Shown: positions 34,529 to 61,927 of the stretch, one piece after another | Position numbering within the stretch: the stretch's first letter is position 1 | Layout: every line of letters starts with the position of its first letter | Origin: Venturia oleaginea | Lineage: Eukaryota > Ascomycota > Dothideomycetes > Venturiales > Venturiaceae | Assembly (NCBI GenBank): GCA_013176395.1 | Contig: JABMLP010000038.1 | Span: forward strand, 62,001 to 126,000 | Reading direction: 5' to 3' | Length of the DNA stretch: 64,000 nucleotides | Position numbers and translations under genes: made by a program | Notes under the pieces: generated by a model | Databases searched by the model: none | Seen by the model: only the letters and a program-made list of their open reading frames with translations | What the model was told of the DNA's origin: nothing

Positions 34529-34789
34529 CACTACGGTCATAGAATTATGTAGATTACAACGATTTTAGGTGTATTTTACATCTAGATTCCCGTGGCCGAT
34601 TTCACCCTTTTTTGGTGTAATTTACAATGGAATCTCCGTTTTTTGGTGTACGTATCTTGTTACAATGCACTAGAAAATCCCGTAGATTACAATCCGTTCA
34701 AAAAGCAATATATTCTCGTGATCTCGGCGAGATTGCCGTGTCACTCATCACCACTAAATATAGTGTAATATAGCTAATATACAGTGATT

Positions 34790-37700
34790 TTAAGGCTCCA
34801 AACCATGCATTCTAACATAGTTCAAAGCCCCTACAATAAGCCGTGACTTGCGCGTGCGATGGCCCTCATCTTTTTCTTCTAGAACCCCAATTAGGCAGTA
34901 GATACCTTCCACCTCAATGATCTCCTTTCTACCATTCTCGTGAGCCACAGTAATCTGGTGTACGTAGTCATCCAATTGAGGGTTCTTCCACCGTGTAATG
35001 AGCGCATATTGACGAGATCTGACCATGAAAAATGTTGATATTGAGCCGAAATTGCAGCGTGGATTGGCTGCAGTGCGGTAGCAGACATAGTGGTCCCTGC
35101 GATTGAGGTCAGTGACGTATTGTGACGAGATTGAGCCAATTGAGACGTCTTTTGAGAGTTTGCAGCGCTTGTAGTAGATTATACGATACCTCGCGATCCT
35201 TGGCGTTATGGAGTTGACGATTTTGGCCAGATCTGAACGCATTCTACGGCTTAGATAGTGATATCTTTTGAATACGACATCTCCATCGACGTCATCGATC
35301 TCGTCGCTCAATGGCCGCCGCTGGCCACTGACTCGAGGGTATGGCGTAGGATCCTCGATATCGGGGTGTAGTCGATTACCATCGGTGGTCTCAAGTAACA
35401 TTATATGGTTGAGCTGTTCTACTCGTAATAGACCGTTACCAATCGACTTATCGATTTGTGACTTGCTTGTACCGTGACTCTTTGCCGCAAAACAGTATCT
35501 TTCGAGTGGATATGACCAATAGTAACGGCAAGGGCCGTTTTTTCTGATGATATCGGGTAGATGTAGAAGCCAGTGATGGTTGATTGAGCAAGCCATTAAC
35601 CTCTCCGGTACGTTACCGTAGTAGATTCGCTGATATTGGCTCACAAATCTGTATACAAACATCTCGAGATCGTTGAGTTGTTCAGGTGTAACAGATTCTG
35701 CAGTAGCAATATACCAGATCTCGTATAAATCGCAAAGATTTGAGTATGCAGGGCCATATAGATGACCGTGTAGAAGCGATATCCCATAGGTCTCAAGAAA
35801 GTCCTGCCATTCAGCCGATTTGAAGCCACGAATATGGTCGAATTTCCCTGGCATCCAGCACATTTTGGTGGGCATTGTAGTACGAGATTGACGTAGAGTC
35901 TTCGAGACGATATTCGCTACCGATGAGTTGAAAAGATAGTCACTACCTGGTGTATAGGTATCGTGATCTTTCTTATATGTATTGATCCGAGTACCGTTCC
36001 AGGTTTTCCAGAGAGTCTTCATGATAATGAGTGGAATATAATGCATAAGATCCATAGGGAAGCTATCAGGGAAGTGGAGGGTATCTAGTTCTAAGAGGAT
36101 GCTTTTTCGTACAACTCCTAGGTTTGTTAGTCAATGCTGATTAATTGAATTGGTATGAGTAGATCTCCACGCCAAGGCGTCAAAATAGTCATGAAATAAG
36201 GCTTTTTGTTAGTAAAACGGCTTAATAATCATACTATCTCGTAGAAGTATGCTGAGGGTGATTCTAACTGGTCCGGTACTTACCAACAAGATCTGCCCAA
36301 CCCTTACCAAGCAACAATGTATCCTCAATCTCTTGACGTAAGGCTTCTCTACAATGTAGATTACCCTTTAATTGATGCTCTGTATGAGGAACATAATAAG
36401 TCTTTTGCCCTGGCGACCATTTGGCTCGAATATAGCAGAATCTACAAGGACTCATTGCATTACCGGGGTGCTTCATTCCGCAGAGCTCAGATACTGCAGG
36501 GCCATCACCTATATGGTAGGTTAGTTAGCTAAAAAAAAGTATCTAGACTATTGAATGAAGTTGAAATAAATATTATTATAGATGTCTCCGGTAACCGAAT
36601 GACCATATATTGAAATAGAGAGGGACTTACCACAAACCAACACCACATTCGCTCGCATCGTGAACTCTCTACCACGGTATTTATTGTGTGCCTTGACCCC
36701 AGTTTTGAGAAGTTTGAGCTCGTCAACGAGAGGCCTTAGATAGCTGTCAATATCCTCATGTTTGTTGGGCCCTGGAATGACGAGAGAGAGTAATATATTA
36801 CCCTTCTTATAGCGAATCGATGGTGGTAGATTATAGTTGACGAGGATGACTGGGCTGACCGAGTGATTGCCCGATTTGATAGCTTGAACGCCATCATAAT
36901 GTAGTGCAAAAGCGATGTCAGTTGGTCGCTTGAAATAGCCTTCTTTTCTGAGATCTCGGTACCTTTCGCCGGACCACCAGTCATCATAGACTAATGGTAA
37001 CTGGTCAATAGGGTTGATCCAGTACTTTTGGTGGTGTTTTTGGAGGGTCTCTGCTCGTATAGCCGATTGGAATTGATACCTGAGGCGAGGTATAAGAGGG
37101 ATATATAGGAAGGTTTTTCGTGCACGGCGAGTGCTATAGTAATAACGAGGTTCGTTACAACTACTGCAACCCTCTAGATTAGCGTAATCGCCAGTGTATG
37201 CAATACAACTCTTGATACAGCAGTCAAAGGTTCTACCCTCGAGCCTCGTCAGTGCCGTAAGAACATCGCCGCGGCGGCGTAGATCTGGCAACTGTGTAGA
37301 CCACCCATTCTCGACGATATAGCGTAGCATATTGTATTGTTCTCAGCTGACATGGTAACCAACCCATTCAGAGAGTTGTAGATACCGTAATTGGGCGTCG
37401 GAGAGTTGACGTACTTAAAGAAAGTTAGCTTTATGTTAACTTGGGGACCTCCAGCGTAAATGAAAGGCCAATTCTGCTAAGAGGACGTTACAGGGATTAA
37501 AATTAGTGTAGAATGAGGTTATATCGTCCTCGAAAAGAATTGAAGTTGCTCAATCGCTGAAGGTTCCTATTTATCTCAAAGTTAACTTTAACTTACTTCG
37601 CTCAAAGTCGATTCCATCACCAACATCGATATCAGAATCGTAATCTAGTGGCTCATTCTGCTCATTCTGAGGGCTTGGCGGGGTGTGAGACTCATCATCG

Positions 37701-37870
37701 ACTATCTCGTCATCGGTCTCGATGCCGGCGGGCTCATCTGCAGCGTTATAGGTAGGAAGATTGAGGTTTTGACGTCGTATCCAAGCCTCACGATGTCTTG
37801 TACGAGTCCGGATAGAACATCGATGTATAGATTCGCCGAGATCTCGTTCAAAAAAGCAGAATACAGCCAT
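34790..37870 (-). pseudogene. CACTA transposase (Tnp2 family), one in-frame TGA
   Basis: Four-exon model: 37870-37597, 37413-36631, 36508-36284 and 36117-34790. All introns are GT..AG and phases are consistent; total 2610 nt. Exon 2 has TFDCCIKSC..CSSCNEPRY..RKTFLYIPLIPRL, the Tnp2 N-terminal zinc-finger-like motif, and LHYDGVQ..VILVNYNLPP..LVIPGPNKHEDIDSYLRPL. Exon 3 continues CGDGPAVSELCGMKHPGN..PCRFC. Exon 4 has SFPMDLMHYIPLIIMKTLW and a DUF4218-like region (DLYEIW..YWSYPLERYC). A TGA at 37343-37345 lies inside exon 2 where related proteins have Arg, so a CGA-to-TGA change is likely. Everything else is intact. Confidence 0.8.
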
Positions 37871-38119
37871 TTTTGGTATGCCAGCGAGAGTGATGTGTTC
37901 GAGTCACAATAGAGGTGTGAGATTCTGAGGCTACCGGCCGCAGAATCCACCTCCGGATTGACTCGAGACGTTTGAAACGGCTACTGATTCGGACATATCG
38001 TTATTGTTGGTGTATGAAACGGTCTAGATGTCATGCTAAGGTGGGGTTGAGGTGTATAATAGGAGAATCTAGCTGTAGATAATTCTACCTTCACGATTAA
38101 AACCTTTCAAAGACTTATA

Positions 38120-39379
38120 ATGGCGCCAAAAACAGCTTTGAGTGAACGCCCGATTGAGCAACCTCTTGATACCGAGATCACCACCTTGGCAGACATCCTC
38201 GTCACCATTAATCTGGCCGTGCGGAACTACCCGGAGAATATTCGCAAGGAGCTGATTGCAGACTATAAATCTGCGGTAGCGAAGTCACTCAATATCGCGA
38301 GATCTTATAGTCAAAAGGAGTCGGTTCCGATTCGCAATGGTGATGGGACTCTGAATCTTGAAGCGTTAGTAACTACTCAATATCTCATCAAAGAAAGCTA
38401 CTTATCTCTCTCTTTTAGTACACGTTTTAATCCCGTTAAGCAAACCAAGCCTTTTAAATCTCAGAGTCATACAGATCGTCAAAATCTGTTCACCGCCCTC
38501 CATACCGAAAGTCCTATTCTATCCAGATACGTAGGCTATTGGCCCTCCGCAGCGTTACTAAAGATCAAGTTGGACTATATTCGTACCGAAGAGTGCCGAC
38601 GAAGAAAGGTTATAATGACACCAAACGTTCCTCGAAAAAATGGCAGGGCAAAGTTGAAATCTACACCGATATCTACACCAACTTCATTAGCAAGTCAAGA
38701 CACCGAGGGTGCCAGAATGATCGATTTTACACCTTCAAAGCCATCAAAACAGTCCTCTCATGTCGCCGAGGTGCTTGCTACACCTGGTATCTATTCGAGG
38801 TCGGTTTCTGCCGAGCCATCTTTGCCATATACATACGACGATGAGGCCGCCGATTTCGAGGACTCTCAGGATCAGATCAATATCGATGATGATATTAGCG
38901 TCTATAGCGATGACCAACACGATGACTACGCCGCTCGAATTGACGAGATTGATGGCGACCTTGAAGCGCTAGATTCTACTCTACAATCTACTCAGATAGC
39001 CTCGAAAAAGCGCAAGGAACGAGACCCTCAAGATTCTACTCTTATATTGGCCCCGAGTGCTAAAAGAAGCTTTCAAAAAACGTCAATTGTGGTGGATGTT
39101 AACGATAATAACGAGAGAAAGAGAGCTGAAAAGAAAGATTCTTTGGCCAAACAAGCTCTTGCATTGAAAAAGAAGACACAGCAAGATGCAGCCCTGGTAC
39201 GTCAGAAAAGAAGCAGTTGGTTCAAGTCACTGAGTGGCCAATTACCCGAAATTGACGAAGAATCAGAGTCATGGTATATCATCGCTTCCACGGTATCTAA
39301 CAAGAAGATGGCATTTGGAAGAGTCTGCACGTACGAGTGCTTCATTGGGGCAAAGACCCTGGACGCGGAGGATGCATAG
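38120..39379 (+). CDS. Second ORF of the CACTA element, unknown function
   Basis: A 419-aa protein transcribed divergently from the transposase. It is charged, with an acidic middle (YDDEAADFEDSQDQINIDDDIS) and a basic, possibly coiled C-terminal region (NNERKRAEKKDSLAKQALALKKK), plus nuclear-signal-like KKRKER. No catalytic motif recognised. CACTA elements often carry a second gene for a DNA-binding accessory protein, and position and composition suggest that role; this is inference. The ORF is identical in the other palindrome arm (50505-51764). Confidence 0.7.
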   Translation: MAPKTALSERPIEQPLDTEITTLADILVTINLAVRNYPENIRKELIADYKSAVAKSLNIARSYSQKESVPIRNGDGTLNLEALVTTQYLIKESYLSLSFSTRFNPVKQTKPFKSQSHTDRQNLFTALHTESPILSRYVGYWPSAALLKIKLDYIRTEECRRRKVIMTPNVPRKNGRAKLKSTPISTPTSLASQDTEGARMIDFTPSKPSKQSSHVAEVLATPGIYSRSVSAEPSLPYTYDDEAADFEDSQDQINIDDDISVYSDDQHDDYAARIDEIDGDLEALDSTLQSTQIASKKRKERDPQDSTLILAPSAKRSFQKTSIVVDVNDNNERKRAEKKDSLAKQALALKKKTQQDAALVRQKRSSWFKSLSGQLPEIDEESESWYIIASTVSNKKMAFGRVCTYECFIGAKTLDAEDA

Positions 39380-39691
39380 CCCCCAGTTTAGGGCCTGGAT
39401 TGGAGGCTATCTGCCTATGTCGCTGTAATTATATAGTTAATCTGGTGATAGAGCTAGATTTGTTGTTTTTGCGGCGATGCGGCGATGCAGTGCACGTGAC
39501 TTTGGGGGGGGGGGGGATCTCCCCGCCAAAAACCAAAAAAAGGGCTGAAATTTACAATAGACTGAATGCTAGATTGTTTACGAACTTTTTTTGAGTACAA
39601 TGAGAATTCCTGAGAGAAATCCCGTAAAAAACGGTGATCTGGTTGTATTTTCCGTGATTTTGGCGTTTACAATGTGTTTGTGACCGTAGTG

Positions 39692-40837
39692 TTAGCAGAC
39701 GTCCCTCTGAGCACCACCTCGCCGCTGACTTTCCACAGATCTCCGAGCATGGCTTGTTGCAATGATGATTTGCCGGCACCGACTCGACCAACGATACGAG
39801 TCAATTCTCCTTTGTGCGCGGAGAAATCAATATCCTCGAGTGCATTTCGAGCTTCTGCTTTGTTCCAAGTGAAAGTGGCATCTCGAATTCGTACCGACTC
39901 TTCGCCTATTTCTTCAACCGTTTCCTTAGTGATGACCGCATCCTTCTGCAGCTCTTCAGCAGAGAAATAGGATGTCAATCTGCCGACCGCTACCGACGCC
40001 TCGATGATAGCGGTGATTACATTGGGCAGGACTGAGCGCGGGAAAGTTAGCAGGTTAAAGAGTGTCAGAGCAGGGAACACGATATCCGAGGTCAGCGGCT
40101 TATTCTGAGTTAGGACGAACACTGCAAATGTAGAGCAAGAGACCAGAAACGGTGTTGTTGACCAGGTAAAATTGGCGAAAGCTTGAGTAGCTCCAATCTT
40201 GCGCAAGGTCTTCAATTCCAGATCATTTCGAATGTAGTTGAGCTTGTTAATAAATGCCGTAGTCCATACGTAGAGTTTTATAGATTTCATGTTGTTGAGG
40301 ATCTCGGTCATAAGACGTGTTCGAGCATCTTTGTTTGCCATTTGCGTCTTTTGCAAAGACTTCATAAAACGAGCGATGAGCCCGTTAGCTGGAATCATAA
40401 GAACCATCACAACAACACCCGCAATCATACTGAGTCCCACTAGTTGATATAGTGAGATCATGCACAACACTACCTGGAACGGGGCAGACCAGAGTTGTTG
40501 GCCGTATTGAGTCAGATCCTGCAAGCGCTGAACATCCACAGCCATGTAATTCACTATGTCGCCGGTGGATTTTGCAGCCCGTCCCTCGTTCGAAAGTCGC
40601 ATTGACTTGACGTAGATTGAGGCTGTGAGAGCAGACTTGATTCTCATTCCTGTTTCGAAAGCTCTTTGAAAGTACTGATGCAAGGAAGCAGTCTGCATGA
40701 CTGAAACGAAGAACATCGTCAAAGCAATCGCCACACCTTTGATCTGCGATTGAGGAGATTCGGTAGTGTACGAATCGACCCCTGAGATCAAGAGCCGCAG
40801 AAGCTGTGGTTGGATGAACTGGGAGGCAGTCGCTGAC
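39692..40837 (-). pseudogene. ABCC-type (MRP/YCF1-like) ABC transporter fragment
   Basis: Minus-strand frame without introns or stops. It starts at FIQPQLLRLLISGVDSY, runs through a transmembrane domain (LHQYFQRAFETGMRIKSALTASIYVKSMRLS..STGDIVNYMAVDVQRLQDL, several membrane segments) and enters the first nucleotide-binding domain. That part has WNKAEARNALEDIDFSAHKGEL and a Walker A GRVGAGKSS, and ends just past GEVVLRG at the CACTA terminus. The N-terminal membrane domain, signature motif, Walker B, second TMD and second NBD are missing. The upstream end is cut by a copia fragment. It is a dead fragment of a vacuolar glutathione-conjugate pump type gene. Confidence 0.85.
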
Positions 40838-41124
40838 GGTTCACTACTACCACACTGACAATGGTGGAGAGTACGTTGATAAGGAAAGCGAGGCTATTCT
40901 AGCCACTCAGGGCATCACCCATCATCGCACGACTCCCTACAATCCTAAGCAGAACCCAAAAGCCGAGCGCTTCAATGGAGTTATCATGACTATGGCCAAC
41001 CCTTAATTCATCGCCTCAGGACTTCCAGAGAAGTACTGCCCTTTGGCCTACACTCATGAAAACTACGTTCGCGTGAGGATGTTGCATCCCAGTGGTTCAA
41101 TGACTATCTACAAGGCATGGTATG
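40838..41124 (+). pseudogene. Copia-1-like integrase fragment
   Basis: The plus-strand reading has HTDNGGEYVD..ATQGITHHRTTPYNPKQNPKAERFNGV, one stop, then LPEKYCPLAYTHENY and SMTIYKAW. It aligns with the Copia-1 integrase of this window, so a related copia element was here. It is cut on the left by the ABC fragment and on the right by the Copia-2 LTR. Confidence 0.85.
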
Positions 41125-41293
41125 TGTCGTATCCTTGGCACTGACAGGGGCGGTGCAATTTCTGCATCTCAAGGATACCTCAATGTTCGAAGAAGAACAA
41201 GAACAATCAAGAATACAAGAGACTTATCCATATATGTTTATTTCATTATCATTTCATTAATATTTCATACACGTGTACAAAGCCGAATCAACA
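41125..41293 (+). repeat. Copia-2 5' LTR
   Basis: 169 bp, TGTCGTATCC..CGAATCAACA. It matches the solo LTR at 25741-25932 and the inverted copy at 48584-48752. An AT-rich centre ('tatccatatatgttt') could serve as promoter. Confidence 0.9.
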
Positions 41294-41470
41294 CTGATTA
41301 GTGGTTACAAGGCGACCACAGATTAGCAAGAACCCAATTTTCCGACAATTGTACGAAACTCCCGCACTGCAGGAGATTATTGTACAACCCACGAGTCACG
41401 TATCGCACAACGGATACAATTCACTTAGATTTATTTGATCTAGAACAAATACGACATTGGAACCCGTACG

Positions 41471-43394
41471 ATGTCTCAACTACCAATCGGAGCATTCCAA
41501 GCAAGCAGTCCTACACCGGCAGGCCCGGCAGTCCCAAGGAAGTTCCAATCGAAAGGGAAGGAAATTGAGCTATTACAAGAGGAGGAGCCAGAAGAAGAAC
41601 CAATACCTCTATTTAGGGAGATCGCACAAGATACTGGAATCCCAATCAATATCCTAAAGAAGCACCTCAATCTACACAATTGGTAGGCAGATATCAACCC
41701 AGAAACGGAACCAGAGGAGGCAAACTTGACAACTTACCTTGTATTAAAACTATATCGACGTAAAGCGGGCAGGAATTACAAAGAGGAATCTAGTCGGAGA
41801 GCTGCGCGATGTTTTCTACGGATGGACAAATTATCAGTTTGGACAGATTAACAAACGTTTCATACGAATATTGATTCAACTCTGTCAAGACAGGCAAATT
41901 ACAATCCGAGATGAGCCCGGCTGTACGGCTGCAAATCAGATGATGTATGTACTTGAGGACTCCATTCCACCAACACCCCGTATTGAGGAGAGTTTGGTGG
42001 AACAGCAGAGCCCAACTACAGACGAATCTGTTAGGCTACGGCTACCGACAATAGAACATGCAGTTCGCGCAAAGCAGGAGTTGGTAGGAGAAACCCTATT
42101 AGGACTCTCCGTTCGACAGAAAGGAACTCTCTCTCCAGTGGTGGAAATGCCGAGATTTCAACCCCAGATTGAGGAGAGAACTCAATCCCAGAGACCTGAG
42201 AACGCAGTACGGCAACCTCAATACCGAACCCAACGTCCTCAATCCTCTCGGCCTACTGGCATACAACAGAAGAATTGGGAAAGAGGCCGTACGAAGGAAC
42301 TATCTCAATTTCAACTACCGACGCAACAGCAGCAGCAGCCTCCCCAAGGTTGGCTTGTACAACCACAAGCAGGAGGAGACGGTAGAGGAGAAGGAAACGG
42401 CGGAGGAGAACTACCAGGCCTACTATTAGGGTCTGGTAGCTTTGCACAAGGTTCCCCAGACCCATTAGGAAGAGGATACAATTCTCAAGGCGGAGGATAT
42501 TCAGGTGGAGGGGATGGAAGCTCGTACGGAGGACCAGGAGCACTACCAACAGGATTACCAGCAGGACCACCAAGACCACCAGGACCGGATCCGTACGAAC
42601 TTCCCACTACAAGATGGATCCCAAATGCCTTTGTCGAATCTCGTGCGATCGCCGCTTTCTCAAAAATATGGAAAAAGGAGAGATGCTACACCGGTGTACT
42701 GTACGACATCCTACAGGAGAAGGTGAAGCTATTTATCACTCTCTGCAGGCGACTCCAGATCTATGAGAACCAGTACCATGCTGTCTTCCCCGACATTCTT
42801 ACCGGACGTGCAGAGACATTCTACCTTGACCATATCGGACCAGATATGAGATGGGACCAGATATATCGTGCGATGTACAACAGATTCAATACTAGCCAAA
42901 ATCACGCAATCTACTACGCAGATTGGACAACAACCTCGTTTGCACGAAGAAGATCTGAGAACCCTGATAAGCCACTTCCCGAAGTGCTCCAGATTATGCT
43001 AGATAAGCTCCAACTTGTCCAACGCGCAATGGGAGAACCGTACAAAGGCGAGATACATCTCAGTACAGCTGTTACCAAGGCATGCAAAGGCGTACGAGAG
43101 CTGGAATCCGCATTCCTACGCCCAAGCACATCGTGCGAGAACTTGTTTGCAGAGCTCCGGTCCGCCCTTCAACTCTACATAGATCGGAAATCTACAAAGC
43201 AATTCTTTACAAGAGAAGGGCAACCCCAGCTACCACGGCCCTTGCACGAAGCAGATCAATTCTTCAATGACAGGAGATTCCGAGATAACAGTAAGGGAGG
43301 AACACCTGCTCCGTCGTACAGCAGAGGCCAGCAACCATGGCAGCCAAGAATAGATCCCCCGCATGAGGCGAATTCGGGACAGCAATCTTATTAA
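41471..43394 (+). pseudogene. Copia-2 gag
   Basis: The N-terminal part (MSQLPIGAFQASS.., 41471-41686) ends in a stop. The main frame picks up around 41770 after a frame change (KRAGITKRNLVGELRDVFYGW..). It then runs through a Pro/Gln- and Gly-rich linker (about 42170-42600) and a globular Gag domain (TTRWIPNAFVESRAIAAFSKIW.., about 42600-43200). The frame ends at TAA 43392-43394, with pol in the same frame directly after. The gag N-terminus is therefore damaged, or needs an unrecognised splice. Confidence 0.7.
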
Positions 43395-44930
43395 CAACCA
43401 TGGCAGAGATCCAAGAAACCATGGCAATCTAAGCCATTTTCTCGCACGGGAGGGAAAGGTTGCTGGATCTGCAACAAACCAGAATGCCGTTCCTGGAAAC
43501 ATACACCTGAGGAGCAAGCTCGCACGAAGAAGCAGTTCTTTACGGCAGTAGATGAAGCTGACATGGAACTCCCAAATGACGAGGAAATCCGACAATTCAT
43601 AGTCTCGTACGAAAGTACCTATGAACAGTTCCTAGCTTCCCAGGACGACGAAGAAGACAAGGGACAACAAGTGGTTTCCTACCTAACCACCGCTGCATTC
43701 TACCACCGTACAACAGGAGAGGATATCTACGGCCAGGGAGAACCGTCAGTACGTGCGGAACAGTTTATCCTTGAAAGCAAATATGCTAAAGCATACCAAG
43801 GTGAACTTTGGGACACAGGCGCCGCACGAGTCTCTACAGTTGGGAAATGCCAGGTTGAAGCATACCTCCGAGAGTTCCCTCGTATGAAGATTGATTGGAC
43901 ACCTGGTAGTGCCCATATCTCGTTTGGAAGTGGACCACCTACTGCGGCAATTGGCACGATAGAAATGGAGAACTCTCTTGGCAAGATCACCTACCACATC
44001 TTGGAGACAGGCACTCCATTCCTCTTCTGCTTGGACGAAGGAGACAGGCTGAAAGCCTACTTCAACAATGTTAACAATACTATCGTACGAAAAGATGGAT
44101 CTACAATCCCAGTCGTGCGAAAATGGAGACATCCTTTCTTCAATCTCAGCCAAAGAGAAGCCGCATCATTCCTAACTGAGACTGAACTTAGGAGAGTCCA
44201 CAAGAGATTTGGCCACCCTCGTACAGAACGCCTACACACTCTCCTCAAGCAAGCTGGCTATACGGATGTTGAAGAGTCCGTGCTAGAACAGATCCGGAAG
44301 GTGTGCCATCAATGTCAATCGCACGACCAGGCCCCAAGAAGATTCAAGTCCTCCATCCAGGATAACTGCGAGTTCAACTACGAAATTATTATCGATGTAA
44401 TGTACCTCGATAGTAAGCCAGTTCTCCATGTGATTGATGCAGCTACATCTTTCCAGGCAGCTACCTTCCTGAAATCGATGTCTGCACGAGACACCTGGGA
44501 TGTTCTCTGCAAATACTGGATCTATGTCTACCAAGGACCCCCAGACAACATTACACACGATCCAGGAACCAACTTTGCGTCCGAAGACTTCAGGAACTTC
44601 GCACGAATTGTTGGAACCTCATGCGAAGAAATGCCTGTTGAAGCCCATCATGCTATAGGGAAGATTGAGAGACAACATGGACCACTAAGGAGGGTGTACA
44701 ACATCCTTTTAGAGGAAATTGGCCATCGTACGGACAAAGAAATAATCCTCCAGATGGCAATCAAAGCTCTCAATGATACAGCAGGACCAAATGGCATTGT
44801 CCCAACACTTCTTGTATTTGGAGCATACCCCAGAATCAACCAGGACTCGCCACCATCTCAAGACATTGTCGCACGAGCTGAAGCAGTTCAAAAGGCTATG
44901 AAAGAGCTCAGAAGTATTCGTGCAAGTTGA
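43395..44930 (+). pseudogene. Copia-2 pol, protease-integrase part
   Basis: In the same frame as gag after one UAA. It has a Cys/His motif (CWICNKPECRSWKH), protease active site (LWDTGAARVS), integrase zinc-binding region (VHKRFGHPRTERLH..CHQCQSHD), and core acidic residues in IIIDVMYLD, HDPGTNF and GKIERQHG. The reading ends at a TGA (44928-44930) created at the palindrome centre. The opposite arm reads a few residues further. RT is lost, so this copy cannot replicate. Confidence 0.8.
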
Positions 44931-44931
44931 G

Positions 44932-48406: not shown

Positions 48407-48583
48407 CGTACGGGTTCCAATGTCGTATTTGTTCTAGATCAAATAAATCTAAGTGAATTGTATCCGTTGTGCGATACGTGACTCGTGGGTTGTACAATAA
48501 TCTCCTGCAGTGCGGGAGTTTCGTACAATTGTCGGAAAATTGGGTTCTTGCTAATCTGTGGTCGCCTTGTAACCACTAATCAG

Positions 48584-48752
48584 TGTTGATTCGGCTTTGT
48601 ACACGTGTATGAAATATTAATGAAATGATAATGAAATAAACATATATGGATAAGTCTCTTGTATTCTTGATTGTTCTTGTTCTTCTTCGAACATTGAGGT
48701 ATCCTTGAGATGCAGAAATTGCACCGCCCCTGTCAGTGCCAAGGATACGACA
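48584..48752 (-). repeat. Copia-2 LTR (right-arm copy)
   Basis: 169-bp reverse complement of 41125-41293, with no difference noticed. Confidence 0.9.
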
Positions 48753-49039
48753 CATACCATGCCTTGTAGATAGTCATTGAACCACTGGGATGCAACATCC
48801 TCACGCGAACGTAGTTTTCATGAGTGTAGGCCAAAGGGCAGTACTTCTCTGGAAGTCCTGAGGCGATGAATTAAGGGTTGGCCATAGTCATGATAACTCC
48901 ATTGAAGCGCTCGGCTTTTGGGTTCTGCTTAGGATTGTAGGGAGTCGTGCGATGATGGGTGATGCCCTGAGTGGCTAGAATAGCCTCGCTTTCCTTATCA
49001 ACGTACTCTCCACCATTGTCAGTGTGGTAGTAGTGAACC
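48753..49039 (-). pseudogene. Copia-1-like integrase fragment (right-arm copy)
   Basis: Mirror copy of 40838-41124, with the same internal stop. Confidence 0.8.
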
Positions 49040-50185: not shown

Positions 50186-50504
50186 CACTACGGTCACAAA
50201 CACATTGTAAACGCCAAAATCACGGAAAATACAACCAGATCACCGTTTTTTACGGGATTTCTCTCAGGAATTCTCATTGTACTCAAAAAAAGTTCGTAAA
50301 CAATCTAGCATTCAGTCTATTGTAAATTTCAGCCCTTTTTTTGGTTTTTGGCGGGGAGATCCCCCCCCCCCCCCCCCCCCAAAGTCACGTGCACTGCATC
50401 GCCGCATCGCCGCAAAAACAACAAATCTAGCTCTATCACCAGATTAACTATATAATTACAGCGACATAGGCAGATAGCCTCCAATCCAGGCCCTAAACTG
50501 GGGG

Positions 50505-51764
50505 CTATGCATCCTCCGCGTCCAGGGTCTTTGCCCCAATGAAGCACTCGTACGTGCAGACTCTTCCAAATGCCATCTTCTTGTTAGATACCGTGGAAGC
50601 GATGATATACCATGACTCTGATTCTTCGTCAATTTCGGGTAATTGGCCACTCAGTGACTTGAACCAACTGCTTCTTTTCTGACGTACCAGGGCTGCATCT
50701 TGCTGTGTCTTCTTTTTCAATGCAAGAGCTTGTTTGGCCAAAGAATCTTTCTTTTCAGCTCTCTTTCTCTCGTTATTATCGTTAACATCCACCACAATTG
50801 ACGTTTTTTGAAAGCTTCTTTTAGCACTCGGGGCCAATATAAGAGTAGAATCTTGAGGGTCTCGTTCCTTGCGCTTTTTCGAGGCTATCTGAGTAGATTG
50901 TAGAGTAGAATCTAGCGCTTCAAGGTCGCCATCAATCTCGTCAATTCGAGCGGCGTAGTCATCGTGTTGGTCATCGCTATAGACGCTAATATCATCATCG
51001 ATATTGATCTGATCCTGAGAGTCCTCGAAATCGGCGGCCTCATCGTCGTATGTATATGGCAAAGATGGCTCGGCAGAAACCGACCTCGAATAGATACCAG
51101 GTGTAGCAAGCACCTCGGCGACATGAGAGGACTGTTTTGATGGCTTTGAAGGTGTAAAATCGATCATTCTGGCACCCTCGGTGTCTTGACTTGCTAATGA
51201 AGTTGGTGTAGATATCGGTGTAGATTTCAACTTTGCCCTGCCATTTTTTCGAGGAACGTTTGGTGTCATTATAACCTTTCTTCGTCGGCACTCTTCGGTA
51301 CGAATATAGTCCAACTTGATCTTTAGTAACGCTGCGGAGGGCCAATAGCCTACGTATCTGGATAGAATAGGACTTTCGGTATGGAGGGCGGTGAACAGAT
51401 TTTGACGATCTGTATGACTCTGAGATTTAAAAGGCTTGGTTTGCTTAACGGGATTAAAACGTGTACTAAAAGAGAGAGATAAGTAGCTTTCTTTGATGAG
51501 ATATTGAGTAGTTACTAACGCTTCAAGATTCAGAGTCCCATCACCATTGCGAATCGGAACCGACTCCTTTTGACTATAAGATCTCGCGATATTGAGTGAC
51601 TTCGCTACCGCAGATTTATAGTCTGCAATCAGCTCCTTGCGAATATTCTCCGGGTAGTTCCGCACGGCCAGATTAATGGTGACGAGGATGTCTGCCAAGG
51701 TGGTGATCTCGGTATCAAGAGGTTGCTCAATCGGGCGTTCACTCAAAGCTGTTTTTGGCGCCAT
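50505..51764 (-). CDS. Second CACTA ORF (right-arm copy)
   Basis: Identical 419-aa frame to 38120-39379 and uninterrupted. The element around it is disrupted, so its role would depend on trans activity. Confidence 0.65.
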   Translation of the reverse strand: MAPKTALSERPIEQPLDTEITTLADILVTINLAVRNYPENIRKELIADYKSAVAKSLNIARSYSQKESVPIRNGDGTLNLEALVTTQYLIKESYLSLSFSTRFNPVKQTKPFKSQSHTDRQNLFTALHTESPILSRYVGYWPSAALLKIKLDYIRTEECRRRKVIMTPNVPRKNGRAKLKSTPISTPTSLASQDTEGARMIDFTPSKPSKQSSHVAEVLATPGIYSRSVSAEPSLPYTYDDEAADFEDSQDQINIDDDISVYSDDQHDDYAARIDEIDGDLEALDSTLQSTQIASKKRKERDPQDSTLILAPSAKRSFQKTSIVVDVNDNNERKRAEKKDSLAKQALALKKKTQQDAALVRQKRSSWFKSLSGQLPEIDEESESWYIIASTVSNKKMAFGRVCTYECFIGAKTLDAEDA

Positions 51765-52013
51765 TATAAGTCTTTGAAAGGTTTTAATCGTGAAGGTAGA
51801 ATTATCTACAGCTAGATTCTCCTATTATACACCTCAACCCCACCTTAGCATGACATCTAGACCGTTTCATACACCAACAATAACGATATGTCCGAATCAG
51901 TAGCCGTTTCAAACGTCTCGAGTCAATCCGGAGGTGGATTCTGCGGCCGGTAGCCTCAGAATCTCACACCTCTATTGTGACTCGAACACATCACTCTCGC
52001 TGGCATACCAAAA

Positions 52014-53538
52014 ATGGCTGTATTCTGCTTTTTTGAACGAGATCTCGGCGAATCTATACATCGATGTTCTATCCGGACTCGTACAAGACATCGTGAGGCT
52101 TGGATACGACGTCAAAACCTCAATCTTCCTACCTATAACGCTGCAGATGAGCCCGCCGGCATCGAGACCGATGACGAGATAGTCGATGATGAGTCTCACA
52201 CCCCGCCAAGCCCTCAGAATGAGCAGAATGAGCCACTAGATTACGATTCTGATATCGATGTTGGTGATGGAATCGACTTTGAGCGAAGTAAGTTAAAGTT
52301 AACTTTGAGATAAATAGGAACCTTCAGCGATTGAGCAACTTCAATTCTTTTCGAGGACGATATAACCTCATTCTACACTAATTTTAATCCCTGTAACGTC
52401 CTCTTAGCAGAATTGGCCTTTCATTTACGCTGGAGGTCCCCAAGTTAACATAAAGCTAACTTTCTTTAAGTACGTCAACTCTCCGACGCCCAATTACGGT
52501 ATCTACAACTCTCTGAATGGGTTGGTTACCATGTCAGCTGAGAACAATACAATATGCTACGCTATATCGTCGAGAATGGGTGGTCTACACAGTTGCCAGA
52601 TCTACGCCGCCGCGGCGATGTTCTTACGGCACTGACGAGGCTCGAGGGTAGAACCTTTGACTGCTGTATCAAGAGTTGTATTGCATACACTGGCGATTAC
52701 GCTAATCTAGAGGGTTGCAGTAGTTGTAACGAACCTCGTTATTACTATAGCACTCGCCGTGCACGAAAAACCTTCCTATATATCCCTCTTATACCTCGCC
52801 TCAGGTATCAATTCCAATCGGCTATACGAGCAGAGACCCTCCAAAAACACCACCAAAAGTACTGGATCAACCCTATTGACCAGTTACCATTAGTCTATGA
52901 TGACTGGTGGTCCGGCGAAAGGTACCGAGATCTCAGAAAAGAAGGCTATTTCAAGCGACCAACTGACATCGCTTTTGCACTACATTATGATGGCGTTCAA
53001 GCTATCAAATCGGGCAATCACTCGGTCAGCCCAGTCATCCTCGTCAACTATAATCTACCACCATCGATTCGCTATAAGAAGGGTAATATATTACTCTCTC
53101 TCGTCATTCCAGGGCCCAACAAACATGAGGATATTGACAGCTATCTAAGGCCTCTCGTTGACGAGCTCAAACTTCTCAAAACTGGGGTCAAGGCACACAA
53201 TAAATACCGTGGTAGAGAGTTCACGATGCGAGCGAATGTGGTGTTGGTTTGTGGTAAGTCCCTCTCTATTTCAATATATGGTCATTCGGTTACCGGAGAC
53301 ATCTATAATAATATTTATTTCAACTTCATTCAATAGTCTAGATACTTTTTTTTAGCTAACTAACCTACCATATAGGTGATGGCCCTGCAGTATCTGAGCT
53401 CTGCGGAATGAAGCACCCCGGTAATGCAATGAGTCCTTGTAGATTCTGCTATATTCGAGCCAAATGGTCGCCAGGGCAAAAGACTTATTATGTTCCTCAT
53501 ACAGAGCATCAATTAAAGGGTAATCTACATTGTAGAGA
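52014..53538 (+). pseudogene. CACTA transposase, right-arm copy, split by Gypsy-2
   Basis: Exons 52014-52287 and 52471-53253 (with the same TGA at 52539-52541) and exon 3 from 53376, broken by Gypsy-2 after ..GNLHC. The rest of exon 3 is at 59726-59799. Exon 4 is not in the window. Confidence 0.8.
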
Positions 53539-53870
53539 TGTAAGAGTTCAACCCTCAAAGGTGTTTCGCAAGTGAGGGAAGACAGCTTTTATTTCAAGTA
53601 TCTAAGTACAGAGAAGAAAGTGTAAGTACAGGAAGGATAGCTAGTATATATAATCCTCCTCTTACAATAGATCCTTCTAGAAAGTATCTTTAAATGGAAA
53701 CGTGACAGCTTGCAAAATAGAACATGGCAGCTTGCGAAATAGAACATGACAGCTTGCAAAATAGAACATGACAGCTTGCAAAATAGAACATGACAGCTTG
53801 CAGAATAACAAGAGAACAATTGGAAATCCAGTCATGGATAAGCTAGAGAGAAGCATTCCATCCCTTAACA
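53539..53870 (-). repeat. Gypsy-2 3' LTR with 22-bp minisatellite
   Basis: 332 bp, TGTAAGAG..CTTAACA on the plus strand. It contains five near-identical ~22-bp units ('gacagcttgcaaaatagaac', about 53704-53805) and a TATA-like 'tatatataatcc'. Confidence 0.9.
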
Positions 53871-56800
53871 TTATCCCCTCCCCCCCTCTCTTGTAGATCG
53901 ATGTGAGCGTAGTCTCTGAGGGCGTAGTATAGGTCCGTCGTTTTCAAGAACGTTGCCGTAGGCACTTTCAAAAGCGTCCAGAGCTGTAGTTTGTTGGAGT
54001 TCGCTAAGGGGTTCCCACGTAGGATCAACGTAGCCTACCCACTTAACTAAGACTTCTCGCGTTTGTTGTCGACCTCGCCGGCGCCATCTTGCGGCTAGAA
54101 TAGCCTCGATACCGTATTCCTCGTCTCCTTGTTCAGTTACTATAGGAGGCGGCTGTGTATTATCTTGTATTTGTGAAGGTAGGGGATCTGTGCCAGCTCT
54201 CCTAAGTAAAGACGTATGAAATCGGTTGTGGATTCCTCTGGGTGTATCAAGCTCGTAAGACATTGAGTTGATAACTCGTGTAACTGTATACTTCCCATGA
54301 ATCCAGTCTAGTTTCTTACAAGGACGTAGGGTTTTTACGTTCTTTAGGTTGAGCCAGACTTTGTCTCCCACTTTAAAAGAGTCAGCCGGAGCACGATCTC
54401 TATTAGAGTAGTATTCTTGCTGTTGCTGAGCTGATACCATTGACGTTTCTGCCCATTCTTGTGCGTCCTTCAATTTTGCTACAAGATCTTGTGCTTTTTC
54501 TTTTGGATTCTTAGGGGTTTCCTGGGGAGCTTCAACAGTTCCTATATGCTCAATGTTATAACCGTGGGTTAAGAAGAAAGGCGATAGGCCCGTAGCTTGG
54601 TTTGGTCTATTATCGAGGCATATTTGAGCAATAGGCAGGAGCTCGACCCAGTCGTTCTGACTAAATGTACAGAACTTACGTAGATAGGCTTCAACTTCTT
54701 GATTTCTTCTTTCCGTAGATCCATCAGTCTCAGGGTGATACGCTGTAGAGAGTCTTCTCTCTATCTTAAGAAGGTGACAAACTTCTTTCCAGAAAGCATT
54801 AACAAATTGCGTGTCCCTATCTGAGACTAGAGATCTAGGAAGCCAGTGTAATCTTACGTAGTTCTGCATAAATAGTTTTGCAAATCCTTCAGCTCCAAAC
54901 TGTTCTTTAGGCACTGGGAACAGGATAGTTCCTTTACCCAAGCGGTCAGTAATAACGCAGAGTCTTGTGCATCTTTGGCTCTCTGGTAATTCGACTATGA
55001 AGTCTACTGAAATATCTTGCCAGATACGGCTAGGGACAGGAAGAGGTTTAAGTAAACCTTTCTTTTTGTCTCGCCAGACTGAAGTTCTTCCGCAGACGTC
55101 ACAATTGCGTATAAACTGACGTATATCTTGAGCAAATCCCGGCCAGTAGAACTGTCTGGAGAGAATAGCAATAGTAGCTTCTCGTCCAGGATGCCCTGAT
55201 AGGACTGAATCGTGTATTTCTTGAATTACTCCTGTTAAGAGAGGCTCGTAGGAGGGCAACCAGATTCGGTCTCTATAGTAGAGCTGGTTATTTTCGACTT
55301 TACAATCTCCTATAGAAGTAGGAACCTTTAGCTTAGATGGGAACTGCCTATCTTGCTTTAGAACGCTTTGGAAAATACGTCTGTAGTCTAGATCTCCTTC
55401 GAGTGCAGTTTCCCATCTATCCCTTAGATCACCTGAGAGAAAGGGATTTTGTATAAAGGGGATAGGTTCTTTGTCTACTTCTTGAGCATTTTCTTGGGCA
55501 GCTTCTTCTCTTGCAGGAGTCTTATCCTCTAGAACGTTAATCCAAAGCTTTGGAGGTAATAACGTTCTAGTTCTTTCAACGATTCTTGGGTCTTGAATAT
55601 CCTTTGGGAGATCTTGATCCCTTCGAGTTAAGGCGTCTGGAACTACAGATTCAGAGCCTGGGCGATAGCCTAGTTTGAAGTTAAACTTAGCTAGTATCTG
55701 CGCCCATCTCATTTGCCTTTCATTTAGTTCCCTTTTTACCATAAACTTCTCAAGGTTCTTGTGATCTGTGAGGATAATGAATGGCTTACTTAGGCTTAGT
55801 AGCTCGCTAGTCCAATGGACTAGAGCTTTGACTATAGCCATAAGTTCTTTGTCGTGGATATCATAATTGCATTCGGCTGGCAAGTGCTTAGTAGAGAAGA
55901 AAGCACATGGTTTCCAGTTACCTAGCTCATCTTTTTGACTAAGTACTGCTCCGGAAGCCCAGCCTGAAGCATCAGGTTCTACTCGCGTAGGCTTATCTTC
56001 ATCAAGTGCAGACAGGACAGGTTCTTTGCAAAACTCTGCCTTAAGTTTTTGAAAAGATTCTTCTTGCTCCTTTCCCCATAAAAATGGAGTATTCTTCTTT
56101 GTAAGGCAAACCAGAGGCTCCCTTATTGTTGAGTTATCTTTTACAAAGTCACGGTAGAAGTTTGTAAAGCCTAGGAAGCCACGTACTCCTCGTAGAGTAG
56201 TAGGACGTTCCCATTCTTTAATTGCTTTGATCTTCTCCGGATCCATGTGTAGGCCCGTTTCAGTATCTATAACGAAGCCTAGATACTTGACTCGTTTGGT
56301 ATTAAACTCGCACTTCCGAATATCAAGGTATAACCCAGCGTTAAGGCAGCTTTGAAGTATCTTTTCAGTCTTTTCTTCATGGTCTTTAAGGTTCTTTGAA
56401 GAGTATATTACTATATCGTCTAGATAAGCTGAGCAGAACTCGTCTAGGTATCGTCGAAGGATATAGTTTATATACCGTTGAAAAGACGCAGGTGCACCGG
56501 TTAAGCCAAAGGGAGTAACTAGCCATTCAAATAGACCATATCTAGTTCGAAAGGCAGTTTTGAACTCATCTCCCGTTGCGATTCGAATCTTGTGGAAGGC
56601 AGCATTTACATCAAGCTTACTAAGATACTTAGCACGAGCTAAGGTTAGTAAAGTCTCTTTTACTAACGGTAGCGGGTACCTATCCTTTCGAGTAATTGCG
56701 TTTAAGGCTCGGTAGTCTACGCAAAAGCGTAAGCCCCCTCCTGGTTTCTTCACAAAGAGAACTGGAGACGCAGCAACTGATTTACTCTCTCGGATAAAGC

Positions 56801-57656
56801 CTTTATCTAGTAGCTCTGTAAGAGTCCTTCGCAAAACAAGGAGTTGTTCTCGACCCATACCATATAGAGGTCCCCAAGGAAGTGGTTTTCCTTCTTCTAT
56901 AGGTATTTCGTGATCAATCCCAGGGCGATGCGGTGGTAGTCTCTCGGCCCTTTTAGGATCAAAGACAGCAGCGTACTTATGAAACCTCTTAGGTAGCAAT
57001 TCCAGTATTTGCTCTGTTGTCAAAGGGACTTTCGGCTTCAAGGCAATATCAATATCTCGAAGAGTAACAGCAAATACTCTAGACGCGTCTTTGATTTTCT
57101 CAAGTGTAGAAGTGACAAGGCGGTGGAATCTTACGGGCGCTACTTGTTGTATATCAAGTTTGTCTTCAAATTTAGCATCGCGAATGCTAATCCCGTTTGC
57201 AAAGGTAAGAGTACCTTTAGATTCATTGATAACGGCTTTGGTGTCCTTGAGAAAAGGCCTGCCTAATAGAAGATCCTCAAATTGTCCCGGGACTATATAA
57301 GCAAAAGCGTTGCATATAAGTCCCCCTAAATCTAGGTTCAACTTCGCAATTTTTGTCACTTGGGTCTGTCCTTCTTCCTTAAGAACTCCACCTATAGTAC
57401 GCGGACTAATAGGGAGTACTTCAAGGTCCATCTGCGAAGCTTTCTCCTCGTTTATTGATGCGTAGCAGCTAGATCCATTATCAAGGAGAGTTTTAAGAGA
57501 GTATATATCGTTCACTATAGTATTTGTGTAGAAAAGGCGGGAGAGCATCTTGGGTCTGAACTGCTCCCATTCTTTTTCTATCCGAGAACGGTGTGAATCA
57601 GTGTCTTTGTTCGAATTCAAAATACTATTTACTCTCTCAATTGACTCCTTTGACAA
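53871..57656 (-). CDS. Gypsy-2 pol polyprotein (protease, RT, RNase H, integrase, chromodomain)
   Basis: 1261-aa uninterrupted frame. Domains in order: aspartic protease with LLDNGSSCYA (DNG instead of the usual DS/TG) near residue 58; RT with FCVDYRALN and YLDDIVIYS near residue 415; RNase H with EPDASGWASG and the DHKNLEKF region; integrase HHCC (HDSVLSGHPG..CDVCGR) and core (DISVDFIVELP, VSDRDTQFVNAFW, YHPETDGSTERRNQ); GPF-like region; and a C-terminal chromodomain (EVLVKWVGYVDPTWEPLSEL) expected to target insertion to marked chromatin. No stops. In minus orientation it lies ~90 nt after gag in the same frame, separated by TGA codons, so expression needs reinitiation or recoding. Confidence 0.9.
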   Translation of the reverse strand: MSKESIERVNSILNSNKDTDSHRSRIEKEWEQFRPKMLSRLFYTNTIVNDIYSLKTLLDNGSSCYASINEEKASQMDLEVLPISPRTIGGVLKEEGQTQVTKIAKLNLDLGGLICNAFAYIVPGQFEDLLLGRPFLKDTKAVINESKGTLTFANGISIRDAKFEDKLDIQQVAPVRFHRLVTSTLEKIKDASRVFAVTLRDIDIALKPKVPLTTEQILELLPKRFHKYAAVFDPKRAERLPPHRPGIDHEIPIEEGKPLPWGPLYGMGREQLLVLRRTLTELLDKGFIRESKSVAASPVLFVKKPGGGLRFCVDYRALNAITRKDRYPLPLVKETLLTLARAKYLSKLDVNAAFHKIRIATGDEFKTAFRTRYGLFEWLVTPFGLTGAPASFQRYINYILRRYLDEFCSAYLDDIVIYSSKNLKDHEEKTEKILQSCLNAGLYLDIRKCEFNTKRVKYLGFVIDTETGLHMDPEKIKAIKEWERPTTLRGVRGFLGFTNFYRDFVKDNSTIREPLVCLTKKNTPFLWGKEQEESFQKLKAEFCKEPVLSALDEDKPTRVEPDASGWASGAVLSQKDELGNWKPCAFFSTKHLPAECNYDIHDKELMAIVKALVHWTSELLSLSKPFIILTDHKNLEKFMVKRELNERQMRWAQILAKFNFKLGYRPGSESVVPDALTRRDQDLPKDIQDPRIVERTRTLLPPKLWINVLEDKTPAREEAAQENAQEVDKEPIPFIQNPFLSGDLRDRWETALEGDLDYRRIFQSVLKQDRQFPSKLKVPTSIGDCKVENNQLYYRDRIWLPSYEPLLTGVIQEIHDSVLSGHPGREATIAILSRQFYWPGFAQDIRQFIRNCDVCGRTSVWRDKKKGLLKPLPVPSRIWQDISVDFIVELPESQRCTRLCVITDRLGKGTILFPVPKEQFGAEGFAKLFMQNYVRLHWLPRSLVSDRDTQFVNAFWKEVCHLLKIERRLSTAYHPETDGSTERRNQEVEAYLRKFCTFSQNDWVELLPIAQICLDNRPNQATGLSPFFLTHGYNIEHIGTVEAPQETPKNPKEKAQDLVAKLKDAQEWAETSMVSAQQQQEYYSNRDRAPADSFKVGDKVWLNLKNVKTLRPCKKLDWIHGKYTVTRVINSMSYELDTPRGIHNRFHTSLLRRAGTDPLPSQIQDNTQPPPIVTEQGDEEYGIEAILAARWRRRGRQQTREVLVKWVGYVDPTWEPLSELQQTTALDAFESAYGNVLENDGPILRPQRLRSHRSTREGGRG

Positions 57657-57749
57657 TTTTGCTCTATCTACTCTACGCCTCCATCCACGACTTTGGATAG
57701 AGGCTACTCTTTTTCCGAGTAGTCCTCTTCTTCAACTTCTTCATTCTCC

Positions 57750-58724
57750 TCAGTGGTTCCTTTGGCCCTTTTTGAACCAAGTTGCGTGACTCTTTCTACC
57801 TGTATCCAACCAGCAGTCTTTCATTCTATGGCCGGCCTTCCCACAGCGTAAGCAGAGGTTATTTGCCTTCCTATATTCATAGGCTTTAGACGAAATTTTT
57901 AACTTGTTTACGCGTGTAGGCTCCCAGTCCATAGCGTTCAGATCTTTAAAAGACTTCTCTTTATCTCTGAATCGTAACTTATCTTCTGAGGAAGAGAGCA
58001 TCTTTGCTGTAGTGATTTGCATACTTGTATTCAAAAGATCGGACACAAACTGCTGGTAGGAGGTACTCTGAGATTGGCCTATTCTCTGGTTTCGCAGCTC
58101 TTGATTTATTGCTTTGTGTAGAAATGCAATTTTAACAGCGTCAGGCCAAGTCATTCCTCCAGCATTAGCAAGAGTGGTTTCAAAACGGGGAAGAAAAGAG
58201 AAGAAGGGTTCTTTCTCTTTTTGTTTGATTGTGGACAGGCTTACAGTAGCTCTTTGTTGTTGTACTGGATCGCCATAGAAGTTGTCCATATACTGTAACA
58301 ATTTCTGTCCCGTTTTATCTTCCTCTGGAGCTGTCTTTACGTAGGCCAGAGTAGCCTGAGCTGCGGAGCCTCGTAGAGAGGAGAAGATGTAGGCAAATTG
58401 GTTCCTACTATCCCCTATAGATTCTGCGTCTATCTCCAACTTCATCCTTGCTTGTTGAAACCACTGAGCCCATTCAGAACGCTTGCCATCAAATTCTTGG
58501 AGCTTAGGAAGTACAGCTTTCTTCCTATGTATTCTGTCTTTTTGTGAATTCTTAGTCTCTTGTCCTTCTACTACGTTCTCAGAGCGAGTAGTGTTAGGCA
58601 AGATTGTAAGAATACGCGTAATAGCATCGTTCTGAATGGCTAGTTGATGTTGTAATGCTGCCATAGCTTCTTGTAGGGCTTGGGGTTCTTGAGGAACTCT
58701 TTGTTCCTGATCTTCTCCTTCCAT
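57750..58724 (-). CDS. Gypsy-2 Gag
   Basis: 324-aa protein. It has an N-terminal coiled segment, a retrotransposon Gag domain (PKLQEFDGKRSEWAQWFQQARMKL..IFSSLRGSAAQATL..MDNFYGDP) and a CCHC knuckle (CLRCGKAGHRMKDC) near the C-terminus. It is open and intact. It forms the capsid that packages element RNA. Confidence 0.9.
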   Translation of the reverse strand: MEGEDQEQRVPQEPQALQEAMAALQHQLAIQNDAITRILTILPNTTRSENVVEGQETKNSQKDRIHRKKAVLPKLQEFDGKRSEWAQWFQQARMKLEIDAESIGDSRNQFAYIFSSLRGSAAQATLAYVKTAPEEDKTGQKLLQYMDNFYGDPVQQQRATVSLSTIKQKEKEPFFSFLPRFETTLANAGGMTWPDAVKIAFLHKAINQELRNQRIGQSQSTSYQQFVSDLLNTSMQITTAKMLSSSEDKLRFRDKEKSFKDLNAMDWEPTRVNKLKISSKAYEYRKANNLCLRCGKAGHRMKDCWLDTGRKSHATWFKKGQRNH

Positions 58725-59014
58725 ATTTTCACCTATGAGAGATAATAGAGAGCACTAATATACACACTCCTAGGCTCTACTCTAGAGATTTGCTAGGCAG
58801 TATAGAGTCAATGCCTATTAGTATAGGAAGGTGACTATAGAATCCCAGAAGGATTTTTTACACTATAGTCCGCTCTGCAATCCTTATTACTAAGGACAGA
58901 GCTCCCAGGGACTGTGAAGGCCAAGTGTATTAAATCTCTCTCCCTAGCTCTTTCTTTCCTCAGCTTATTACAGCTTCAACTCCTAAGACTACGCTGTCTT
59001 AGGATGACCTGCCC

Positions 59015-59340
59015 TTGCTTCTTGGAGATTCTAGCACGTTCTAGAAAATCTCAGTTTGAATTCTCTTGAATTCCCTTTTTGGATTGGCCCTTTCGGTTGG
59101 CCCTTGCTTCTTGGAGATTCTAGCACCTTCTAGAAAATCTCAGCTTGAATTCTCTTGAATTCCCTTTTTGTTTGGCCCTTGAGGTTGGCCCTTGAAGTTG
59201 GCCTTTGAGGTTGGCCCTTGCTTCTTGAGTTAGGACAAGTGTCCTCTTCTTGAAATTCCTTTCTGTTTGGCACTTGAGGTTGGCCCTCGCTTCTTGGATT
59301 AGGACAAGTGTCCTCTTCTTGAAATTCCTTTTTGGAGCTT
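59015..59340 (-). repeat. Gypsy-2 leader minisatellite
   Basis: Between gag and the 5' LTR, an ~88-bp unit ('cccttgcttcttggagattc'..) occurs twice and a ~67-bp unit ('taggacaagtgtcctcttct'..) twice. Between them are several 'ttggcccttgagg' 13-mers. The remaining leader (58725-59014) has no feature seen. Confidence 0.7.
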
Positions 59341-59388
59341 GCTCTCTGTGAGCCTTTCTTCCTTTGTAAGACTGAGGTACTTAGATAA

Positions 59389-59720
59389 TGTAAGAGTTCA
59401 ACCCTCAAAGGTGTTTCGCAAGTGAGGGAAGACAGCTTTTATTTCAAGTATCTAAGTACAGAGAAGAAAGTGTAAGTACAGGAAGGATAGCTAGTATATA
59501 TAATCCTCCTCTTACAATAGATCCTTCTAGAAAGTATCTTTAAATGGAAACGTGACAGCTTGCAAAATAGAACATGGCAGCTTGCGAAATAGAACATGAC
59601 AGCTTGCAAAATAGAACATGACAGCTTGCAAAATAGAACATGACAGCTTGCAGAATAACAAGAGAACAATTGGAAATCCAGTCATGGATAAGCTAGAGAG
59701 AAGGATTCCATCCCTTAACA
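59389..59720 (-). repeat. Gypsy-2 5' LTR
   Basis: 332 bp, identical to the 3' LTR except for one base. The same 22-bp repeat array is present. It is followed by the AGAGA TSD. Confidence 0.9.
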
Positions 59721-59924
59721 AGAGAAGCCTTACGTCAAGAGATTGAGGATACATTGTTGCTTGGTAAGGGTTGGGCAGATCTTGTTGGTAAGTACCGGAC
59801 CAGTTAGAATCACCCTCAGCATACTTCTACGAGATAGTATGATTATTAAGCCGTTTTACTAACAAAAAGCCTTATTTCATGACTATTTTGACGCCTTGGC
59901 GTGGAGATCTACTCATACCAATTC
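59721..59924 (+). pseudogene. Remainder of CACTA transposase exon 3 and intron (right arm)
   Basis: Continues the right-arm CACTA: EALRQEIEDTLLLGKGWADLVG, then the GTAAGT donor of the third intron. It matches the reverse complement of 36147-36350 and is cut by the Gypsy-3 LTR. Confidence 0.9.
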
Positions 59925-61910: not shown

Positions 61911-61927
61911 ACCTGGTAAAAGTCACC

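Follow-up and report, generated by a model that had tools for sequence, protein, structure and literature searches.

The window analysed here is a stretch of 64,000 bases from the fungus Venturia oleaginea (positions 62001-126000 of contig C32, which is 153,203 bases long in an assembly of 46,083,126 bases and 61 contigs). It contains a nearly perfect palindrome of 17 kb with arms of 8.8 kb, which in our view probably arose as an inverted duplication through fold-back priming. The assembly around it can be trusted only in part. The same palindrome is found at the start of a second contig, C12 (2.29 Mb), which begins within it, and it is the C12 copy that keeps the hairpin at the turn.

The arms of the palindrome

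A near-exact inverted repeat of 8.8 kb cannot be the work of chance. The original prediction had placed it at 36147-59924, and BLAST of the window against itself bore this out: in reverse complement, 36346-53538 aligned with itself at 99.87% identity (17,202 columns, 4 mismatches and 6 gap openings), and 36147-36350, likewise turned round, is 100% identical to 59721-59924. The parts, from the self-BLAST and an alignment of the arms, are as follows.

36147..44937, plus strand: arm A, 8,791 bp
44938..53538, minus strand: inner part of arm B, the reverse complement of arm A
59721..59924, minus strand: outer 204 bp of arm B, past the insertion of Gypsy-2
44910..44966, no strand: the centre; its C12 equivalent has the stem CGCGCA/TGCACG and a 26-nt loop, and in C32 the loop is altered and more symmetric

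The arm alignment also confirmed that the arms agree save for a homopolymer (13 G versus 20 C) and some central bases. Between arms A and B there are no substitutions except in the last ~20 bases at the centre, and arms A, B and the inner arm of C12 share ~8.7 kb outside the centre with 0 substitutions; the poly-G run is 13 long in A, 20 in B, 15 in the inner and 16 in the outer arm of C12. It had been argued that the structure persisted long enough to collect insertions; the arms are without substitutions, and long persistence is therefore unsupported. The outer limit of the symmetry lies inside one repeat, a CACTA-like transposon, and the turn inside another, a Copia-like element.

The whole arm of ABC-C and Copia-like sequence occurs at four places, two in C32 and two in C12, and all of them end at the turn (among the best 38 of 157 candidates). 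An unfolded, near-identical copy running straight through the centre was not found in 32 match rows, with all 15 candidates scored, in a search that is blind to regions collapsed in the assembly or absent from it.

The turn

With all 15 candidates scored, seven copies of the Copia-like element on other contigs match at 96-97% as far as the centre or beyond it. Four of these were fetched and checked for their run through the centre, and they all read AGAAGTATTCGCGCAAAGGTTGAAGTTAACCGCGCAATCAATGCACG, then CAAT. The centre of C12 is identical to them through TGCACG and then goes on with AATACTTCTGAGCT instead of CAAT; what stands after TGCACG, AATACTTCT, is the complement of AGAAGTATT upstream. 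CGCGCA thus faces TGCACG with 5 of 6 bases paired, and the 26-nt loop between them is present once. The unpaired C/A position of the stem has left its trace in C12 as well as in C32, where one arm has T and the other C, and a mismatched base would be kept in this way because both strands of the stem would enter the product. Hairpin priming from a single-stranded 3' end would give just such a turn as that of C12, the signature of a fold-back inversion, and such an origin is supported by its letters.

In a study of Saccharomyces cerevisiae (PMC7467729), fold-back inversions have stems of 4-15 bp, their median loop is 36 nt where MRE11 and SAE2 were intact in the strains studied, and they had nearly always undergone a homology-mediated secondary rearrangement, some at Ty-containing sites. 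The stem and loop seen here fall in the yeast range. The likeness to the yeast cases extends to the short stem (imperfect ones are among those of yeast), the once-present loop of tens of nucleotides, the inverted copy of the flank and, if the join was made in the cell, the outer end joined at dispersed repeats, whereas the genome here is a natural one and the yeast cases are selected mutants. Telomere capture and a monocentric outcome, traits of the yeast cases, would be conjecture here. At least three exact TTAGGG or TTTAGGG units in a row were found on neither strand of C32, nor in C12:1-40000. Human inverted duplications with terminal deletion (PMC3907307) have short inverted microhomology too, of 2-8 bp in 13 junctions, and are alike also in a spacer that is present once, but their 21 sequenced spacers measure 766-70,466 bp and the one here 26 nt.

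The outer end

53539..59720, minus strand: Gypsy-2, a long terminal repeat (LTR) retrotransposon in arm B, with LTRs of ~333 bp and one mismatch (332/333 alike)
59925..64000 and on to C32:126109 past the window, plus strand: Gypsy-3, which begins where the mirror symmetry stops

These two elements had been taken for two chromoviruses inserted in one arm, and the claim stands for only one of them. Gypsy-2 is flanked by a 5-bp target duplication, AGAGA (53534-53538 and 59721-59725), its LTRs differ at 1 of 333 positions, and it is absent from arm A, where the site is empty, and from both C12 arms. It looks like a plain insertion into arm B. Gypsy-3 does not lie within the arm; it starts at 59925, exactly at the end of the symmetry, and this start is within a many-copy CACTA-like transposon. 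Its LTRs, aligned over 180 columns, show 8 substitutions and 2 gaps, it has no target duplication (5' flank AATTC versus 3' flank CAGCC), and ~2.4 kb of internal sequence is missing in comparison with several other copies. As to their domains, Gypsy-2 has reverse transcriptase, RNase H and integrase domains and a chromodomain just below the Pfam cut-off (24.3 versus 25.1 bits), and the two open reading frames (ORFs) of Gypsy-3 that were scanned hold a zinc knuckle and an aspartyl protease only, with no reverse transcriptase, integrase or chromodomain.

Beyond Gypsy-3, C32 nowhere takes up the next sequence of the arm again, and the junction of CACTA-like sequence and Gypsy-3 was not met at another place in 72 match rows (best 40 of 519 candidates). 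Gypsy-3 may either predate the palindrome, whose arms have no substitutions, or be a recombinant of two elements, and we favour the second because the target duplication is missing. The Gypsy-3 end is a recombination or an assembly join, and homology-mediated capture in the cell, as in yeast, or the work of the assembler at this repeat would both fit. We count an outer end with the marks of a recombinant element in favour of the fold-back reading, in which a homology-mediated secondary rearrangement may have followed.

How the palindrome may have arisen

A fold-back origin was among those named in the original prediction; the evidence supports it, and the Copia-like copies that read through the centre make it specific. 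A break in a Copia-like element would have left a single-stranded 3' end finishing ...AATCAATGCACG, and this end may have folded back over 26 nt so that TGCACG met the CGCGCA farther upstream on the same strand, in a stem with 5 of 6 bases paired. Extension of the paired end would then have copied the chromosome backwards through the Copia-like element and the ABC-C fragment and into the CACTA-like transposon, and all sequence distal to the break would have been lost from the palindromic copy. The mirrored arm would finally have been joined, in the cell and not by the assembler, to another stretch rich in transposable elements via repeats, with Gypsy-3 inside the CACTA-like element.

Several observations weigh against this course of events, some of them at the turn and others in the assembly. 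The Copia-like segment folds no better than shuffled DNA (z about -0.4 to -0.5), its best predicted fold is a different hairpin with other pairs, and a stem this short is readily found by chance. The centre of C32 is 6 edits away from that of C12. In C12, single-base deletions accumulate in the mirrored arm toward the contig end, and the outermost ~430 bases disagree with the arm at 5 places. Of these, 4 are all four sites where the CACTA-like copies on C59 and C14 differ from the arm (the poly-A site 36538-36540 was left out of this comparison), and there C12 has the allele of C59 and C14 once and lacks bases three times; at six sites farther in, where C59 differs from the arm, C12 is of the arm type throughout. 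Reads from several CACTA-like loci have probably been mixed at this end, to judge from these alleles, and because they probably met there the outer flank of C12 should not be read as a mirror copy of the chromosome. The outer contexts number three (the C12 flank, the left flank of C32 and the side of Gypsy-2 and Gypsy-3) around a structure with an even number of arms, and therefore at least one context is missing or at least one join is wrong. The palindrome is, moreover, read from assembled contigs.

The central motif GTTA-GCGCGG-TAAC was found at 44931-44944 (C32 106931-106944), as had been predicted, and its description as a near-perfect cruciform with no spacer is right for the letters of C32; it does not hold at the origin, where C12 has the 26-nt loop. 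The edits that separate the two centres, 4 insertions and 2 deletions as split by eye from the alignment, halve the asymmetry, with the edit distance to the own complement going from 16 to 8, and of 20,000 sets of random edits with this same make-up, 0 gave a centre as symmetric as that of C32. The predicted single-strand fold is -26.9 kcal/mol for C32 versus -21.4 for C12. The C32 centre thus looks like a later or artificial symmetrisation of a C12-type centre, which could be due to hairpin-templated mutation in the cell or to a consensus that mixed reads of both orientations. A natural zero-loop Copia hairpin was tried and rejected, as the C32 centre is not Copia sequence and the C12 centre is. 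A simple simulation of the mixed consensus, in 30 sets of noisy loop reads, did not reproduce the C32 centre, the best simulated consensus being 7 edits away from the C32 centre (mean 11.5) and none of the chimeras and shuffled controls closer than 6.

The whole structure might also be an artefact made in vitro or in the assembly, by chimeric fold-back reads or by reads recruited in mirror image where a contig ends. C12 does end in the palindrome, its error density rises toward that end and its outermost bases are mixed, and palindromes in long reads are a known product of whole-genome amplification (PMC6218980) and are alike in having inverted repeats joined at one point. The turn here differs from such chimeras in being common to two contigs, one of which runs on past it, with no unfolded version found. 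The two contigs share the same mismatch and have different outer sequence, C32 extends 46 kb beyond the centre, and an artefact in a minority of reads is disfavoured because the unfolded copy was not found among the candidates scored. An adapter that went unrecognised would be expected to give a turn with no loop, and this we also count against an artefact, which we regard as unlikely.

Two contigs with one palindrome

In the stretches compared, C12 and C32 match in inverted orientation, at C12:1-40000, 40001-50000, 78897-86130, 83001-89000, 91633-94333 and 103932-105705. On the C32 side the compared segments begin at 7927, and their agreement with C12 extends as far as C12:105705 at ~0.05% substitutions; six flank segments of 23,984 bases in all, a shared 1.6-kb element excluded, have 11 substitutions. 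For the stretches in between (C12:50001-78896, 89001-91632 and 94334-103931) coordinate arithmetic gives spacings equal to the base or nearly so, with the exception of C12:50000-78897, which is ~6.9 kb longer than its counterpart C32:52000-74031 (a further insertion or deletion).

The structural differences are of several kinds. Only C12 has a 1.6-kb insertion with a 13-bp target duplication and another insertion of ~6.3 kb. Only C32 has 17.26 kb at C32:29105-46367, which end in direct 1.6-kb repeats and consist of 15.7 kb and one of the two direct copies of the 1.6-kb element (compare C12:84530-86130), and their lack in C12 is what one would expect after a repeat-mediated deletion. The 1.6-kb element has copies at 4845-6450 and 20872-22477 of the window, at C32:27502-29104 and 44766-46367 and at C12:28493-30096; it has ATTG repeats at one end, poly-T at the other and an internal tandem repeat of ~353 bp, and a 13-bp target duplication at the single insertion checked. 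It is a non-LTR-like element and was probably active recently.

Because these differences look biological, two versions of the region probably exist. The two may be duplicates, variants within a culture or the arms of a giant palindrome. All of these concern what happened around or after the fold-back and are compatible with it. That we see two versions of one chromosome end, either as variants in a mixed culture or through a later duplication onto two chromosomes with the palindrome in each, has in our opinion somewhat less than an even chance. The clean differences speak for it (the two C12 insertions, the 17.26 kb missing from C12 and Gypsy-2 only in C32); the evidence is, on the other hand, this one duplicated region of the genome, and it bears solely on events after the fold-back.

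A haploid genome is expected to have one copy each of the large subunits of the three nuclear polymerases. A profile search of the genome for this family, PF04998, gave 4 match rows at 3 loci, a count from one marker family only that suggests a haploid assembly and argues against a general diploid duplication. In the largest subunit of RNA polymerase II the fungus is 92% identical to Venturia effusa and 93% to V. inaequalis, the next protein listed being at 74%, which probably places it in Venturia or close by; V. inaequalis is described as a haploid ascomycete (PMC6256676). With this haploid signal, and flanks that nevertheless match at ~0.05% substitutions, C12 and C32 might be the two arms of a single fold-back, with arms of ~100 kb or more. 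Both contigs reach the same palindrome, and a fold-back would mirror exactly this flank. A third arm is however needed for the side of Gypsy-2, C12 ends ~620 bases past the Gypsy-2 site, its outermost bases seem mixed with another CACTA-like copy instead of being clean C32 flank, and the two centres are not identical. We hold such a giant palindrome to be doubtful; the Gypsy-2 and Gypsy-3 side of C32 would in that case be a wrong join or part of a further copy. More improbable still is a natural palindrome with arms of ~100 kb or more that survived in a haploid fungus through insertions of transposable elements and a 17-kb repeat-mediated deletion that made its arms unlike, its centre drifting to perfect symmetry by hairpin-templated mutation.

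Palindromes with gene conversion from arm to arm are found on mammalian Y chromosomes, and an old palindrome could in the same way have kept its arms identical here. Instead of the about 4 substitutions expected in ~8.7 kb from the flank rate of 11/23,984 there are 0 (Poisson P about 0.02). A young palindrome predicts the same identity, as does polishing with multi-mapping reads, and conversion within the palindrome alone would not make C12 and C32 alike, and we find this explanation very improbable.

The contents of the arms

From the outside to the centre each arm consists of part of the CACTA-like transposon, ~1.4 kb with an ABC-C ORF and a truncated Copia-like element.

34529..39691, minus strand: CACTA-like DNA transposon with the ends CACTACGGTCA / TGACCGTAGTG, Transposase_21 and DUF4218; many copies
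39667..40893, minus strand: ABC-C fragment ORF in arm A, 408 aa stop to stop, with ABC_membrane and the start of ABC_tran
48984..50210, plus strand: its mirror in arm B, the symmetry copy
41121..44937, plus strand: Copia-like element in arm A, cut short at the centre; other contigs have copies that are mostly 96-97% like it
44938..48756, minus strand: its mirror in arm B, the outer limit set by symmetry

The outer end of the palindrome (36147) falls inside the transposon at 34529-39691, which we take to be of the CACTA type and which has at least 9 further full-length matches at 99-100% besides those in C32 and C12. The Copia-like element of arm A gave matches to Pfam gag_pre-integrs and rve, both below the cut-off. 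The best-named relatives of the 408-aa ORF are ABC-C transporters of the YCF1 type, and it resembles their N-terminal part; it is a truncated fragment between two transposons, doubled by the palindrome. Elsewhere the fragment occurs at C5:1646260-1647406, 96% alike over 39694-40841 of the window (among the best 38 of 157 candidates), and against phage records it gave no match, which is uninformative.

A natural fold-back and its surroundings

Fold-back inversions are to our knowledge known mainly from yeast mutants and human disease, and no comparable natural palindrome in a filamentous fungus was found among the titles and abstract openings listed in searches of an open-access library. The type of event is known and the natural example is new. 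The readable hairpin, its mismatch and the unrearranged copies suggest that the same route is taken between transposons in a filamentous fungus, and the site could serve for following the stability of a palindrome and the decay of its centre in cultures from single spores. The case also cautions that assemblies can get the outer joins of a region like this wrong.

Scans of the whole window for Rfam families and tRNAs gave no match. Two ORFs of other kinds lie in this contig rich in transposable elements, one at 29943-30968 with an APH phosphotransferase domain and one at 19067-20188 with a GMC oxidoreductase domain. A second inverted, near-identical pair (97-99%) is found at the right end of the contig, C32:136023-139351 and 149520-153203, and one of its copies has a 333-bp stretch that resembles the LTR of Gypsy-2. 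Outside the window, the 502 bp at C32:55013-55514 match their own reverse complement at 93%.

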